Below, piece by piece: positions 23,667 through 29,374 of a stretch of DNA of 64,000 bases. The translations under genes were made by a program, and so were the position numbers. The notes beneath the pieces are model-generated. The model saw nothing but the letters and a program-made list of their open reading frames with translations. It had not been told where the DNA came from and ran no database searches. This DNA comes from Gloeobacter kilaueensis JS1 (GTDB taxonomy: Bacteria > Cyanobacteriota > Cyanobacteriia > Gloeobacterales > Gloeobacteraceae): the NCBI RefSeq assembly GCF_000484535.1, contig NC_022600.1, forward strand, positions 2,294,001-2,358,000, written 5' to 3'. Positions within the stretch are counted from its first letter, which is position 1; each line of letters starts with the position of its first letter.

Positions 23667-24071
23667 GTGCGCAGCGTCTGCCTGCTTATCGTGCTCCTCG
23701 CGCTGATCGCCGGGCCAGTGATAGCCCGACCGGCAAAGCGGGTCCAGTTGCAACTGTCAGCCCACCGGCCTGGAGCGGGAGCAGCCTATCTCGCCGCCAC
23801 CCTCCAGCCGCGCCACTACCGCTTCGCCGCCCGCAAGCCCCGGCTGGAGCGCATCGCCCGGCGGATTGGCAAGACGGCAATTCCCACTTTCTTTGCAGGG
23901 CCGCCCCCCGGCTTCAGCCTCGATCGCACCCTTCGCAATACCGGGTACGACACACTCGCGATCTTGCTCTGGCCCCTTGGCCTGGGTCGCGCTCAGATCG
24001 AATATCTCGCCGATCGGGGCTTCGAGGCGGCAAGTGGCCAGAACGTCCGCCTCTTCGAGGCGAAGTGGTAA
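23667..24071 (+). CDS. Exported hypothetical protein at the left edge of the island
   Basis: 134 residues from GTG at 23667, preceded by GGGAGCGGGAGG. Signal peptide (SVCLLIVLLALIAGPVIA). The mature part is basic, with a possible membrane-associated segment near 100 (TLAILLWPLGLG). The last ten codons (QNVRLFEAKW) plus stop lie in a 33-bp sequence repeated exactly at 28801, which suggests that this 3' end was the integration site of the following island. No known family. Confidence 0.65.
   Translation: MRSVCLLIVLLALIAGPVIARPAKRVQLQLSAHRPGAGAAYLAATLQPRHYRFAARKPRLERIARRIGKTAIPTFFAGPPPGFSLDRTLRNTGYDTLAILLWPLGLGRAQIEYLADRGFEAASGQNVRLFEAKW
24037..24069 (+). repeat. 33-bp direct repeat, left copy (attL-like)
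   Basis: Identical to 28801-28833. It contains the hairpin CGCCTC-TTC-GAGGCG. It codes for the C-terminus of the gene at 23667 and continues into its TAA stop. Confidence 0.85.
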
Positions 24072-24998
24072 TAATCCACCCAGCGCAGCTCGTGGCGATA
24101 GACGATGATCTGCCGGATTAGTTAAACAGATCAAGTTCTTGAAGACAATTGTGTCTAAAATTGGGACACCTTTTAGCAGAGATATCTCTTGCTTCCTGAG
24201 AATGGGGATAAGCCATTGAGCGGGTGAGCCAGATCCTGTAGCTCTGCCAAAAAGAGCTGTTAGGGTTGATTGTCCAGCCGGATGTCTCTAACAACCCCCT
24301 GCATCCGATCGATGAGAGCTACTCCCAAGTAGATGAACGATGGCCCGGCTGTGCGCTTCTGCATCGTCAGCAGACCCGCAAACTCGATGTCCGGCCACTG
24401 CCGCCAGAAAGTTGAGTGGCTGCAATCGGCATACTGAGCAATGGTGGCTGCTGAGGCGTAGCAGTGGCCGTACTGGTCCATTAGGCCAATCACCATCTGC
24501 ACGATGCAGCTAATTGTGTAGAGGCGGGTGCTACTGATAGCGTGATTGACCAGCCCTTTCCAGTGCATGTCTACGGCCAGTTCTTTGCACAGCTCAGCAG
24601 CAGCTGTCTTCGTCTGGGTGTGGGCCTTGGTTGAGATCCGATGGTTCTAAGCGAGGAGTGCAACGGGCGCTCTGCTGAAGACGGGCTTGAAATGCGTTGT
24701 GTCCAGCACTCTCAAGGCGCACTGTGGCGGCATACACTATACGTGGACTCCAAGCGGTTTTGGCGCTTGAGAAGCATCTGAGTCCAAGCAGAGGCACAAG
24801 CCTTTAAGGGCACCTTCCAGGTCTATGCCTGGATGGGTTTATTAATCATGAATAGTGCAGCGTACACACTAGATATAGCGTGATACTTTTCTGTGTAATC
24901 GACGCTTGGTTCATCATAGATTCATCATATCTTCATAAGAATCTATATCTATATCTAGTATTTTGTGGATAAAGATCGTATTTGTTCGAGGTATAGAC
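24072..24998. other. Mostly non-coding stretch of 927 bp at the start of the island
   Basis: Apart from the broken HTH frame (24260-24645) I find no believable gene. From about 24840 the DNA becomes AT-rich, continuing into the WYL-like gene. Confidence 0.6.
24260..24645 (-). pseudogene. Broken helix-turn-helix (HTH_36-like replication/regulatory) gene
   Basis: A frame open from about 24645, after an in-frame stop, down to the stop at 24260. There is no start codon before an internal ATG at 24568. The segment IGLMDQYGHCYASAATIAQ followed by ADCSHSTFWRQWPDIEFAG has the layout of winged HTH_36 domains (length-matched helix, A.IA..A..S..T..R....E.AGLL). Such domains occur in plasmid or phage replication and regulatory proteins. 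The missing start and N-terminus suggest a decayed mobile-element gene. Confidence 0.4.
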
Positions 24999-25316
24999 AT
25001 GGCTGACACATATGAGATTATTGCTAACGCAATCCGCAACAAACAGCAGATTATTGCAACGTATGATGGGCATGAAAGAGAGCTTTGTCCGCATTCACTT
25101 GGCACAAAAAATGGTACTTTACAATGTTTGTTTTATCAGTTTGGTGGATACAGTAGTAAAGGTAAAATTGAACCGGGCTCCTCAAATAATTGGCGATGTT
25201 TGTCACTTAGCAAATTGTCGAATGTAAAAACTAGAGATGGAAACTGGTATACAGCATACAACCATAGTAGACCAAATTCATGTATTGATAATGTGGAGAT
25301 TGAAGTAACTAGTTAA
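24999..25316 (+). CDS. Small WYL-like/SH3-barrel protein
   Basis: 105 residues from ATG at 24999 (MADTYEIIANAIRN). The N-terminal helix followed by KQQIIATYDGHERELCPHSLG and later NWRCLSLSKLSNV resembles the WYL-type fold, where a small ligand-binding barrel begins with xAIRxxxQIxxxYxGxxRxxxPH. Here no DNA-binding domain is attached. Clearly AT-rich. Its stop overlaps by 4 bp the stop of the convergent OLD-family gene, so the two 3' ends are interlocked. Possibly a ligand sensor of a defence pair; function unproven. Confidence 0.65.
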   Translation: MADTYEIIANAIRNKQQIIATYDGHERELCPHSLGTKNGTLQCLFYQFGGYSSKGKIEPGSSNNWRCLSLSKLSNVKTRDGNWYTAYNHSRPNSCIDNVEIEVTS

Positions 25317-27025
25317 GTCGTGCTTGCAAGACCACTTACAAAGTCTCTTGCGGCCCTTAGTTCCTCATCTGTTGCAAGGTCGCGTGCGAGCACTGGGTTT
25401 ACCCACCTTGGTCCATGCCCGCTTACTGTTCTAACAAAGCCTTCAAGTTCTCCAACATCCACGACATAGAGCCCCCCTGCACGTAGATTTGATAGAAGTC
25501 GTTCACATGCTACGGACGGATCACCCGATGGAACAAATACTTTACCAGCAAGTTTGGCATTACTCCAGGGTGACGACTGTTTAAGAATTGATTGAATAGC
25601 AGCCTTAGTTTGCTGTGGAAACGTTTCTGCTACAACAGCGGATAGCAAAGCTTCTATTGCCTCTTTTACTTCTTTAGTGTTTAGATCAGGCTTCCTCTGC
25701 TCCACAGATTTTTTCACTAGTTTCCAATCATTTACTATTGTTGTCCAATCAATTCCAAGAGATTCCACAATTGATTTTAAAGGTTCTAGCTCCGATAACA
25801 CGTCGAAGTCTGCAACCACTTTTACCGGTACATCAACAGCACGCAGTGCACGAATTACGGGGGGAAAACGAGCTTTTCCTCCGCAATGTGTAAACATCAA
25901 GTCTGGGCGCTTTGTTTCAGGTGTACTACTCATCGTAACTGCGTCTAGTACTGCTGAATAGAAACGACAATCAGCGTCAGCCTCACACACTACAACACTT
26001 TCATGAAATAGACCATCAAGAATATTGGAGTAACGGAGTAAGGGATCACCCCAAAGCTCTTTAATTTTCTCGCTATTTAGTAATCGTACAGTATTTACAA
26101 ATCCATTTCTTGTAATTCGTATTATACGCACATCTGCGCTTTCTGCGTTGAGAACGCCCCGTAGAATATCCGTACTATGTGTTGCAATAAACAGCTGGCG
26201 TTCTTTGTTTCGATCTTGAACCAAGGTAGTGCCTAATAGCCGTGCCTGTGGTGGGTGCAAAAAGGCTTCAGGCTCGTCAATAAGCATAATACTCTCACGT
26301 CCTACTGATGTTGCTAGTAAAACACCTGCGAAGCTACGCATACCGTCACCTTGTGTATGTAATGTTGGAAGCTCCTCTATTCTTTCAACGTAGGTCACGC
26401 TAAGTCGATCTTCATTAGCATTTGGTATAGGGCGTTCGCCAACATGTAATGGAACTATGTTTCCTGCGTTACGATGAACAACAAGATCAACACCAAAAGC
26501 TTTTCGGAACTCCGAACTCAATCTAACTTCGAGTTTGTCATCTCTTAGTAGGAAATGAATTGGGTGGCTGGGGTTGTCCCGTGCGAGCGCGATGTTCTGC
26601 GGTGGAGTACAGATTTGGAGCCGTTCGTCTGCAGACAGTAAATGGCAGAACCAACGTGAAAGCCCACCTAAAACATGGTCTCCCCGCTGCCAATCGCTAT
26701 CGATTTGGCTTCGATGAAGTCCATGTCCAAGCGCTTGATAGATTGGGTTTTCAGGAGCTGAGTTTTTTGCTCTAACAGTCCATCCTGAAAGCCATTTATC
26801 GACTTCATTCACATCGCCAATTCTTTGAATTTGAAGGCTCTTTAGAACTGGGCTCATGTGGCCACTGTTTTGAAGCTTATCTCTAATGGCACGAAGAGTT
26901 GCGCTCTTTCCAGCATTATTCGGTCCAACGATGAGAACAACATCATTAGGTGAAACTGGAACCTCACTGCCATCGCTAAACGTGAGATTATTGATTACTA
27001 CTCGAAGTGTAGTTAGTCCATTCAT
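25313..27025 (-). CDS. OLD-family ATPase-TOPRIM nuclease (putative phage-defence protein)
   Basis: 570 residues. ABC-type ATPase N-terminus with Walker A GPNNAGKS (34-41), an RSFAGVLLATSVGRESIMLIDEPEAFLHPP segment carrying the signature-like and Walker B parts (about 230-255), and an ATHSTDIL His switch. A TOPRIM domain follows (about 340-450): VVVCEADADCRFY supplies the acidic E and KVVADFDVL the DxD. The C-terminal 120 residues are family-variable. OLD proteins are ATP-driven nucleases; relatives act in Gabija, PARIS-like and retron defence. No UvrD helicase is adjacent, so this is not classical Gabija. AT-rich compared with neighbours. Confidence 0.88.
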   Translation of the reverse strand: MNGLTTLRVVINNLTFSDGSEVPVSPNDVVLIVGPNNAGKSATLRAIRDKLQNSGHMSPVLKSLQIQRIGDVNEVDKWLSGWTVRAKNSAPENPIYQALGHGLHRSQIDSDWQRGDHVLGGLSRWFCHLLSADERLQICTPPQNIALARDNPSHPIHFLLRDDKLEVRLSSEFRKAFGVDLVVHRNAGNIVPLHVGERPIPNANEDRLSVTYVERIEELPTLHTQGDGMRSFAGVLLATSVGRESIMLIDEPEAFLHPPQARLLGTTLVQDRNKERQLFIATHSTDILRGVLNAESADVRIIRITRNGFVNTVRLLNSEKIKELWGDPLLRYSNILDGLFHESVVVCEADADCRFYSAVLDAVTMSSTPETKRPDLMFTHCGGKARFPPVIRALRAVDVPVKVVADFDVLSELEPLKSIVESLGIDWTTIVNDWKLVKKSVEQRKPDLNTKEVKEAIEALLSAVVAETFPQQTKAAIQSILKQSSPWSNAKLAGKVFVPSGDPSVACERLLSNLRAGGLYVVDVGELEGFVRTVSGHGPRWVNPVLARDLATDEELRAARDFVSGLASTT

Positions 27026-27372
27026 GCTTTATCAGTTAGTAATGAGTTAACTGCATAGTTACGTGCTCAAATGTAATTTCTAAATGCATACTGCTCTAGC
27101 ATTTATCCACACCAACACCATTTCGACTACACAGGTATTTCAATACTATCAGTTTTTATTGTTTTGGAACAGTAACAATGCAGCAAGCTGATGCAATCAG
27201 CTCCTCTTCTTTCAACCGCAAAAGTGGTCCTGTTTATTTACTTTTCCTCAAATTTAATAAGAGGAAACATGCTGAGAGTACGGACATGGCACAGCTAGCC
27301 TTTCAGTCGCTATAGTCTTTGCCTGTCGCAGCTCTTTATTGTCAACCGTGGTTCTCCGCTTATAGTAGGTTC
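27026..27372. other. AT-rich 347-bp promoter region of the OLD gene with two inverted repeats
   Basis: No gene seen. AGCTGAT-GCA-ATCAGCT at 27186-27202 is a perfect 7-bp inverted repeat; TTTCCTC (27243-27249) pairs with GAGGAAA (27261-27267). Either could be an operator or a terminator of the leftward Uma2 operon's opposite side; no T-run supports termination. Confidence 0.4.
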
Positions 27373-28110
27373 TCACAGGCTCTCAGGCTCTATTCCCAGT
27401 GCCCTTAGTTGCTCCGCCAGGGCTGCAGCTCGCCGCTCCGCCTGTTCAGCTCTCTGGCGTTCTTGCTCCAATTCCGTTGGTATCCACCGACCTGCTACGT
27501 CATACCACCGCAACCACTCTCGCTCCACTCCTGCAAAGCTGCCCTGCCACAAACCCAGCCCGATCTGTAATGGTTCTATCCACAGCCTCGGCTCCGCCAT
27601 TTCTTGATATTCTGCTCCCTCCAACTGAAATAGCCGATAGGTGTTGCCCTCTCGGTTGAACAGCACATAGTACGGCACCCGCAGGATGCTCTCGTACACC
27701 TCCCACTTCGAGGGCGGCTGCCGACCCCGCAAAGTCTGACCCTGGTCTTCCTCCAGGGTTCCTGGTGAGAGTAGCTCGATCACTACCACCGGTGCGCGGC
27801 CCTCCCGCCAGAGCACGTAGCTGAGGCGACCCGCATCAACCAGGCGGGGTACGCCCACGACGGCAAACCAGTCGGGCCGCTTGTAGTAGCTGGTGTTGAG
27901 CGAGTCGTAGTACAGATTGAGGTCGGCGGCGGTGAAGACCTGATCAGCCGGGTAGGTAGCAGGCTGGAAAGTCTGGCTGAGCAGTTGCGGCTGCCAATCG
28001 TGAAACTCGTCTGGCAAACCGGGTTCCTCGGGATTCTCACTCGGCAGCTCATACATCGAGGGCAGCGGTGGCGGTGGTGATGAGGTGCGTACCGGTTTAT
28101 AAGTCGTCAT
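27373..28110 (-). CDS. Uma2 family restriction-endonuclease-like protein
   Basis: 245 residues from ATG at 28110 (MTTYKPVRT). The PD-(D/E)xK-type core is visible as KRPDWFAVVGV (D), APVVVIELLSPGT (E-x-hydrophobic) and KWEVYESILRVPYYVLFN, the standard Uma2 order. A C-terminal coiled coil (ELEQERQRAEQAERRAA) ends the protein. Uma2 proteins are numerous in cyanobacteria and their role is unclear. Last gene of a three-gene operon. Confidence 0.9.
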   Translation of the reverse strand: MTTYKPVRTSSPPPPLPSMYELPSENPEEPGLPDEFHDWQPQLLSQTFQPATYPADQVFTAADLNLYYDSLNTSYYKRPDWFAVVGVPRLVDAGRLSYVLWREGRAPVVVIELLSPGTLEEDQGQTLRGRQPPSKWEVYESILRVPYYVLFNREGNTYRLFQLEGAEYQEMAEPRLWIEPLQIGLGLWQGSFAGVEREWLRWYDVAGRWIPTELEQERQRAEQAERRAAALAEQLRALGIEPESL

Positions 28111-28156
28111 CGGGCCTCTACTTGTACAGGATCCTCTGTCCACGGGGCGCTCTCGC

Positions 28157-28375
28157 TCAGGGCGTGTTGCCGTTGGCTAGCCGGGCGTTCTCCGCAGCCC
28201 ACTTTGCGTGCAACTGCCCAATAGGGCTTTGCTCATAATCGCGGTCTAACATCTCCTGGATTGCCTGCAGTTCCTTGCTCCAGGCACGCATCTCCGCAGA
28301 AACTGCCCGTAGCTGTGCGATCAGCCGCTGATGGGTCGCCTCATCCGGCACATAAGGGGCAGATGGCTCGTTCAT
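28157..28375 (-). CDS. Small helical hypothetical protein (72 aa)
   Basis: 72 residues, nearly all predicted helix (HQRLIAQLRAVSAEMRAWSK, then LQAIQEMLDRDYEQ). Starts inside the stop of the preceding 113-aa gene (ATGA overlap at 28372-28375) and lies 46 bp ahead of the Uma2 gene. Size and coupling are like an antitoxin or adaptor, but no family is recognised. Confidence 0.6.
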   Translation of the reverse strand: MNEPSAPYVPDEATHQRLIAQLRAVSAEMRAWSKELQAIQEMLDRDYEQSPIGQLHAKWAAENARLANGNTP

Positions 28376-28713
28376 GACAATCTCCAGAACTGTTGCACTT
28401 CGCGAATACTCTGCAGGAAGGCCGCGATGCGGTTGCTACCTGATGTGGCGCTCTGTCTGAGTAAGTTCATCTTAGCGGTGGCTGTCTGGATATCATCGCG
28501 GGCAATACCTGCCATCAGACCGCTCAAGCGCCGGTAGAGATCCTGGGCATCGTCGCTGACGTTGCTGAGAGCCTGAAGATCATTAAGGGTTAGGTCGCTC
28601 TGCCCGTGCTGCTCGAAAAGAGTGCGCTCAATGCTCCCCGCAAAGTCAATGACATCGAGTAGTTGAGAGGCAAGGGCGAAGATTTCGTTTTTCAGTTCAT
28701 CCGACAGTCGCAT
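28372..28713 (-). CDS. Helical hypothetical protein (113 aa), first gene of Uma2 operon
   Basis: 113 residues, all-helical, no cysteine or catalytic motif visible (MRLSDELKNEIFALASQLLD at the start). Coupled by ATGA to the 72-aa gene. Normal host-like GC, in contrast to the AT-rich OLD gene next door. Function unknown; the conserved three-gene order would need comparison with other genomes. Confidence 0.6.
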   Translation of the reverse strand: MRLSDELKNEIFALASQLLDVIDFAGSIERTLFEQHGQSDLTLNDLQALSNVSDDAQDLYRRLSGLMAGIARDDIQTATAKMNLLRQSATSGSNRIAAFLQSIREVQQFWRLS

Positions 28714-28800
28714 CAGCTTCTGGTAGTGGAGATAGAGGTGCGTGGCGGCTCGGTTGCATGTTGCGCTTGAGGGGCATCTTCAGCCAGACAGATGCGCCGC

Positions 28801-28833
28801 GCCAGAACGTCCGCCTCTTCGAGGCGAAGTGGT
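28801..28833 (+). repeat. 33-bp direct repeat, right copy (attR-like)
   Basis: Exact copy of 24037-24069 in the same orientation. Read in the same frame it also ends in K-W followed by a stop (TGA instead of TAA). The rplM promoter follows within 40 bp. Confidence 0.85.
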
Positions 28834-28844
28834 GACGAGGGCTC

Positions 28845-28874
28845 TTTGAAGCCGGGGTCGCTATTGTGTATAAT
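28845..28874 (+). promoter_or_regulatory. Probable promoter of rplM operon
   Basis: A perfect -10 hexamer TATAAT at 28869-28874 lies 42 bp before the rplM GTG; TTTGAA at 28845-28850 with 18-bp spacing is a weak -35 candidate. Confidence 0.45.
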
Positions 28875-28915
28875 CCTAATTTGTGTGCGCAACGGCAGCA
28901 CAGGAGCAGTGGACC

Positions 28916-29374
28916 GTGACAGCTAAGACTTTTCTGCCCGCAGTGGACGCCATCGAGCGTCAGTGGTTGGTGGTAGACGCCGCCGGCCAGCATCTGGGGC
29001 GTCTGGCGAGTGTCGTCGCCAATCTTTTACGGGGCAAACATCGCCCCAACTTTACCCCGCACCTCGACACGGGCGACTTTGTGATCGTGATCAACGCCGA
29101 AAAAGTCCAGGTGACGGGCCGCAAGAGTTCTCAAAAGCTATATCGCCGCAACTCAGGCCGCCCCGGCGGCATGAAAGTCGAAACCTTCAGCCACCTGCAG
29201 GCGCGCCTGCCCGAGCGGATCGTCGAAAAGGCGGTCTGGGGGATGTTGCCCCACACCCGCCTGGGCCGCCAGCAGTACACCAAGCTCAAGGTCTACAAGG
29301 GGGCGCTCCATCCCCACGCTGCCCAAAAACCCGCACCCTTCGATCTGAGCACGGTGCTCGGAGGTCAACCATGA
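28916..29374 (+). CDS. rplM: Ribosomal protein L13 (uL13)
   Basis: 152 residues from GTG at 28916, with AGGAG nine bases upstream; the alignable family start (T-A-K-T-F-L-P) fits this better than an upstream ATG-less extension. Hallmarks: [64 protein letters not shown]. 50S subunit assembly protein. Overlaps rpsI by ATGA. Confidence 0.97.

Follow-up and report, generated by a model that had tools for sequence, protein, structure and literature searches.

Islands inserted by tyrosine integrases at the 3′ end of a gene are exemplified by SGI1 at trmE (PMC8409611), with its flanking direct repeats, its preserved target-gene 3′ end and a single repeat copy at the empty site. In other elements, the integration site lies within one of the element's own genes. 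Mycobacteriophage BPs has its att site in the repressor gene and shows integration-dependent immunity (PMC4557955), and in the case of the archaeal SSV-type suicidal integrases, integration splits the integrase gene (PMC8371274). Here we describe an island of about 4.7 kb in Gloeobacter kilaueensis JS1, within a window of 64,000 nucleotides (NC_022600.1, positions 2,294,001 to 2,358,000), which is the whole stretch of DNA that was analysed and in which all unprefixed coordinates below are counted. The island shares with SGI1-type islands the flanking direct repeats, the kept 3′ end and the single-copy empty site. Its features, from left to right, are the following.

23667..24071, plus strand: host-gene open reading frame of 134 aa, exported-looking; the insertion targeted its 3′ end
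24037..24069, plus strand: left 33-bp repeat copy, the final 33 bases of the host gene through the first base of its stop codon (TAA)
24070..24120, minus strand: outermost left segment of the island, rep residues about 248-262 (IRQIIVYRHELRWVD; rep HMM, E=0.0036)
24130..24553, minus strand: rep residues 1-142 (the broken HTH gene), with one frameshift near 24300; 50-54% identical to pGMOR2
24963..25316, plus strand: 117-aa open reading frame with a weak WYL match; 51% to a hypothetical protein of colicin-N plasmids
25313..27025, minus strand: intact gene for an OLD-family ATPase/TOPRIM protein of 570 aa, predicted from its domain matches to be defence-like
27373..28143, minus strand: Uma2 gene; 80% DNA identity to its closest relative, in G002
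28157..28375, minus strand: plasmid-operon gene orfB; 36% identity with a 74-aa pGMOR2 gene
28372..28713, minus strand: plasmid-operon gene orfA, with a 113-aa product; 34.5% identity with a pGMOR2 gene over its full length (E=1e-20)
28742..28810, minus strand: outermost right segment of the island, rep residues 275-297 (TFWRGASVWLKMPLKRNMQPSRH), entering the repeat (rep HMM, E=5e-5)
28801..28807, plus strand: GCCAGAA, 7 bp of microhomology that the host gene shares with the antisense of the conserved F-W-R codons of rep
28801..28833, plus strand: right 33-bp repeat copy, syntenic with rplM and followed by the host-gene stop TGA
28846..28874, plus strand: promoter-like site of rplM (TTGAAG-17-TATAAT), about 10 bp past the host-gene stop
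28883..29374, plus strand: rplM, the right-hand neighbour

As the preliminary description of this locus had stated, the two 33-bp direct repeats (24037-24069 and 28801-28833) are identical and lie in the same orientation; they flank 24070-28800, and the match between them ends at exactly 33 bp on either side. This pair is the longest exact repeat within the window, where about 1e-10 such pairs would be expected by chance. Read in frame with the gene at 23667, each copy encodes QNVRLFEAKW, followed by TAA on the left and TGA on the right, again in agreement with the earlier reading. A search of the whole 4,724,791-bp genome, allowing up to three mismatches, found these 2 copies only, and the repeat is therefore not REP-like; REP-like dispersal, which the preliminary description had raised as the observation that would count against it, was looked for and rejected. 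The hairpin reported in the repeat (CGCCTC-TTC-GAGGCG) is real, but it carries little weight, since about 3% of random 33-mers from the window contain a comparable one and since it lies in conserved coding sequence.

An empty site reading 23667-gene, one repeat, rplM had been proposed as a test of the island, and this arrangement was found in a congeneric genome, G002. There, an intact orthologue of the host gene (52% amino acid identity) ends in a single repeat copy that matches the JS1 repeat at 30/33 positions; it ends in GGCCAAAACATCCGCCTCTACGAGGCGAAGTGG TGA, directly followed by the promoter of rplM and by rplM. When the window was aligned with this locus by BLAST, one match led from the gene into the left repeat and another from the right repeat across rplM, and there was no remnant of an insertion at the G002 site. 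Within the JS1 island itself, terminal inverted repeats did not exceed 6 bp.

The two ends of the island proved to be related to each other. We built an HMM from relatives of a plasmid gene, rep, leaving out the window, and searched it against the 64 kb in six-frame translation. The right edge came out first (E=5e-5, profile positions 62-85), then the left edge (E=0.0036, profile positions 39-54), and the third match followed at E=0.79. At the DNA level, the right edge is 76% identical to pGMOR2 over 66 nt (3.6e-6). Thus, the ends of the island are neighbouring parts of one plasmid gene. Counted in rep codons, the left edge ends at 262 and the right edge restarts at 275, from which it follows that the relic is a plasmid in circular permutation, with the opening inside rep. 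Between the two edge segments, about 39 nt of conserved rep sequence are absent, and the conserved block at this spot (consensus QVLAMADAQPAGS), which is kept in the relatives that cover it, is missing from the island. The broken HTH gene noted earlier is indeed broken, and turned out to be the N-terminal part of rep with its frameshift; its one relative in the plasmid collection is on pGMOR2. With a frameshift, stops and a lost linker and C-terminus, the island rep is a pseudogene, and the island is therefore a relic rather than a working plasmid.

The plasmid in question, pGMOR2 (NZ_CP063847.1), is an 8.8-kb circle from Gloeobacter morelensis MG652769. Its 482-aa gene, which we call rep, is by inference replication-initiator-like; it has weak matches to HTH_36 (5e-4, below the cut-off) and to a PHROG replication-O-like family (0.006), and no relative of it was found in the PDB. 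Like pGMOR2, the island has the rep-like gene followed by 113-aa and 74-aa genes in the same order and orientation; the matches run over 28713-28375 for the 113-aa gene and over 28372-28190 for the 74-aa gene. Whereas pGMOR2 is free, has an intact rep and encodes a relaxase, MobC and an ISAs1 transposase, the rep of the island is split and in decay; mobilisation genes are absent from the island, which carries the OLD-family, Uma2 and 117-aa genes instead. We put the probability that the island goes back to a small circular plasmid of the pGMOR2 family, now decayed, and that this plasmid was opened inside rep, near 0.88. A point against it is that the plasmid relative is distant by sequence (34-54% amino acid identity). 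With rep reduced to a pseudogene, the island can probably no longer move.

The AT-rich middle of the island (43% G+C, against 61-63% in the flanks) contains the OLD-family gene and the 117-aa open reading frame; of the AT-rich, defence-like genes mentioned earlier, the OLD-family gene is borne out. In the 570-aa protein, an AAA_21 domain (8e-16) precedes an OLD-like_TOPRIM domain (3e-5), both over their cut-offs, and the protein also matches the PADLOC Old model (7e-26) and PDB 6p74 (2e-6); its best plasmid relative is 34% identical. It is likely to be retained cargo, with a predicted defence-like role. The layout of ATPase and TOPRIM is common to Gabija GajA and the OLD-family nucleases, from which the island protein is nonetheless distant, and no GajB-like partner was recognised adjoining it. 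The best relatives of the 117-aa open reading frame are on small E. coli plasmids of the colicin-N type, surprisingly long-range kin. The presence of Uma2, also claimed before, was confirmed; Uma2 genes occur in many copies across the genus. No relatives of rep or of the OLD-family gene were confirmed in viral contigs.

The target gene is not kept throughout the genus. Its 134-aa product has no Pfam match and belongs to no known family. Orthologues are found in G002 (see above) and in G005 (37%), whereas in G003 the gene is internally deleted, with its last ~47 bp (the 3′ block) retained between bolA and rplM, and in G001 it is entirely absent; the gene is thus dispensable in the genus. The −10 region of rplM is conserved across four species. 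The host-gene stop occupies 28833-28835, and the −35-like element of rplM lies about 10 bp further on, at 28846. Insertion at the stop codon is less surprising in this setting, because those ~10 bp alone separate the stop from the rplM promoter.

How did the plasmid enter? We lean towards a single illegitimate insertion, by microhomology or template switching, with duplication of 33 bp of target, and favour it over integration by a tyrosine integrase. In this scheme, the copying strand would exit the end of the host gene just after ...GAAGTGGT (...AAGTGGT) and continue into the plasmid. It would copy nearly the whole plasmid circle and then return through GCCAGAA, 33 bp upstream of the point of exit. 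The outcome would be 33 bp of duplicated target, about 39 nt of omitted rep and a microhomology at the return joint, and the position of the stop codon would reflect what the host tolerates. The motif GCCAGAA occurs in rep of pGMOR2 and of most relatives, and another joint between rep and chromosome, in G002, falls on the microhomology TGGGCG. Against a one-step switch, a duplication of exactly 33 bp that finishes within the stop codon and re-forms a stop would be coincidental, and an att site accounts for it better. If the insertion did occur in this way, perfect direct repeats at gene 3′ ends need not be integrase att sites.

The chief competitor to insertion at a microhomology is site-specific recombination, in which a plasmid with a 33-bp attP core inside rep recombined with the end of the host gene through a tyrosine integrase that was supplied in trans or has since been lost. 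Integration would split rep and halt replication, and excision would restore rep, with the host gene intact throughout. We consider this account the less likely of the two, although several observations fit it well: the 33-bp repeats are perfect and lie at the 3′ end of a gene whose coding sequence is preserved, the empty site in G002 is clean, and att sites within an element's own gene have precedent (PMC4557955, PMC8371274). When the halves of rep are joined through one repeat, they are in frame with no stop at the joint (a 1 in 3 outcome by chance), the translation of the joined circle reading ...RHELRWVD-YYHFASKRRT-FWRGASVW.... Other observations weigh against it. No integrase gene or recognisable relic of one matched anywhere in the island, near either end or elsewhere, as the preliminary description had already remarked, and none is annotated on pGMOR2. 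Five tyrosine-recombinase matches in the genome, all away from the island, could in principle work in trans, but none of the five genes has a comparable repeat nearby, and a trans-acting integrase with a matching att was rejected on this account. The core would also have to replace a segment of rep that is conserved in other members of the family, and the 7 rep-native base pairs at the junction suggest that microhomology played a part at one stage or another. Searches for the 33-bp core gave no match in viral contigs and chance matches only in plasmids. Thus, of what had first been proposed, the acquired island, its insertion at the gene 3′ end and the 33-bp target duplication hold, while the tyrosine-integrase mechanism was not borne out.

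A stronger form of site-specific integration would have plasmids of the Gloeobacter family carry a recombination site in rep as a rule, so that integration silences replication and excision restores it, with the recombinase acting in trans. We regard this as improbable. If it were true, bacterial plasmids would have their own equivalent of the integration-dependent immunity of phages and of the archaeal suicidal integrases. To our knowledge, a replication switch of this type has not been described for bacterial plasmids.

Numerous rep fragments of the pGMOR2 family are also scattered elsewhere on Gloeobacter chromosomes (loci L162-L172, in G001-G003), often broken near codons 262-285. The breaks at these other loci lie near the same codons as those of the island, and some are at a palindromic element or a microhomology. 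In a hand tally, 12/15 of them fell in a 50-codon domain that makes up 26% of the two domains compared, an interval that was chosen post hoc. We do not claim an att-like hot spot in rep shared by these loci: two of the breaks involve the palindromic element or a microhomology, and the idea is further weakened by one junction that is old and common to two species. The palindromic element (CTGGTAWCGCTGTGGGCGAA and its reverse complement) lies inside rep in G002 (L165:9981-10024), and one of its arms is found in G003 (L199:1470-1489), at a position matching a further joint between rep and chromosome in G002. G. violaceus has a second locus with permuted rep, of about 6 kb (G001, L163:4721-10832), with the C-terminal part of rep on the left and the N-terminal part on the right; both of its joints share TGCAGC. 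This locus, the one comparable permuted case, cannot be taken for an independent clean integration, its right junction being common to G003. A reversible att site that splits rep is without a second clear case to support it.

A two-step history is considerably less probable than either mechanism above. Here, the repeats and the rep edges would come from separate events, an earlier insertion at this site being followed by recombination of the plasmid by homology. Old rep remnants are indeed scattered over Gloeobacter chromosomes, with one junction common to two species, and relatives of Uma2 and of the small genes are found at chromosomal sites in the genus. However, the repeats are still identical, both rep edges directly abut them and the empty site of G002 holds no remnant. 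Finally, the reading that no insertion took place and that the repeat is REP-like or due to chance has only the short hairpin to speak for it and is extremely improbable, given 2 copies in 4.72 Mb, a chance count of about 1e-10 and an empty site in a relative.

The JS1 genome itself offers an integrase island for comparison. At about 812,350-823,690 of the genome, a tRNA-Ser is associated with 72-bp direct repeats that are 97% alike and 11.2 kb apart, with a 384-aa tyrosine recombinase beside them; it is the one clear island among the five recombinase regions. This is the canonical form of an integrase island in this genome, and the rep island differs from it. The rep island is also unlike the SGI1-type islands (PMC8409611) in that it is without an integrase, its ends are the halves of rep and one joint has a 7-bp microhomology. 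It is instead a known kind of event, an integrated plasmid relic with defence-like cargo, and as such an instructive but fairly ordinary plasmid capture. It nevertheless suggests how a captured plasmid may be recognised when no integrase is at hand, since the ends of an island may be adjacent parts of one plasmid gene, and it ties the rep fragments scattered over Gloeobacter chromosomes to a living family of small plasmids. As in BPs (PMC4557955) and the SSV-type elements (PMC8371274), insertion split a gene of the element itself; in those systems the split gene encodes a repressor or an integrase and site-specificity is demonstrated, whereas in the Gloeobacter island the split gene is rep-like and site-specificity is putative.
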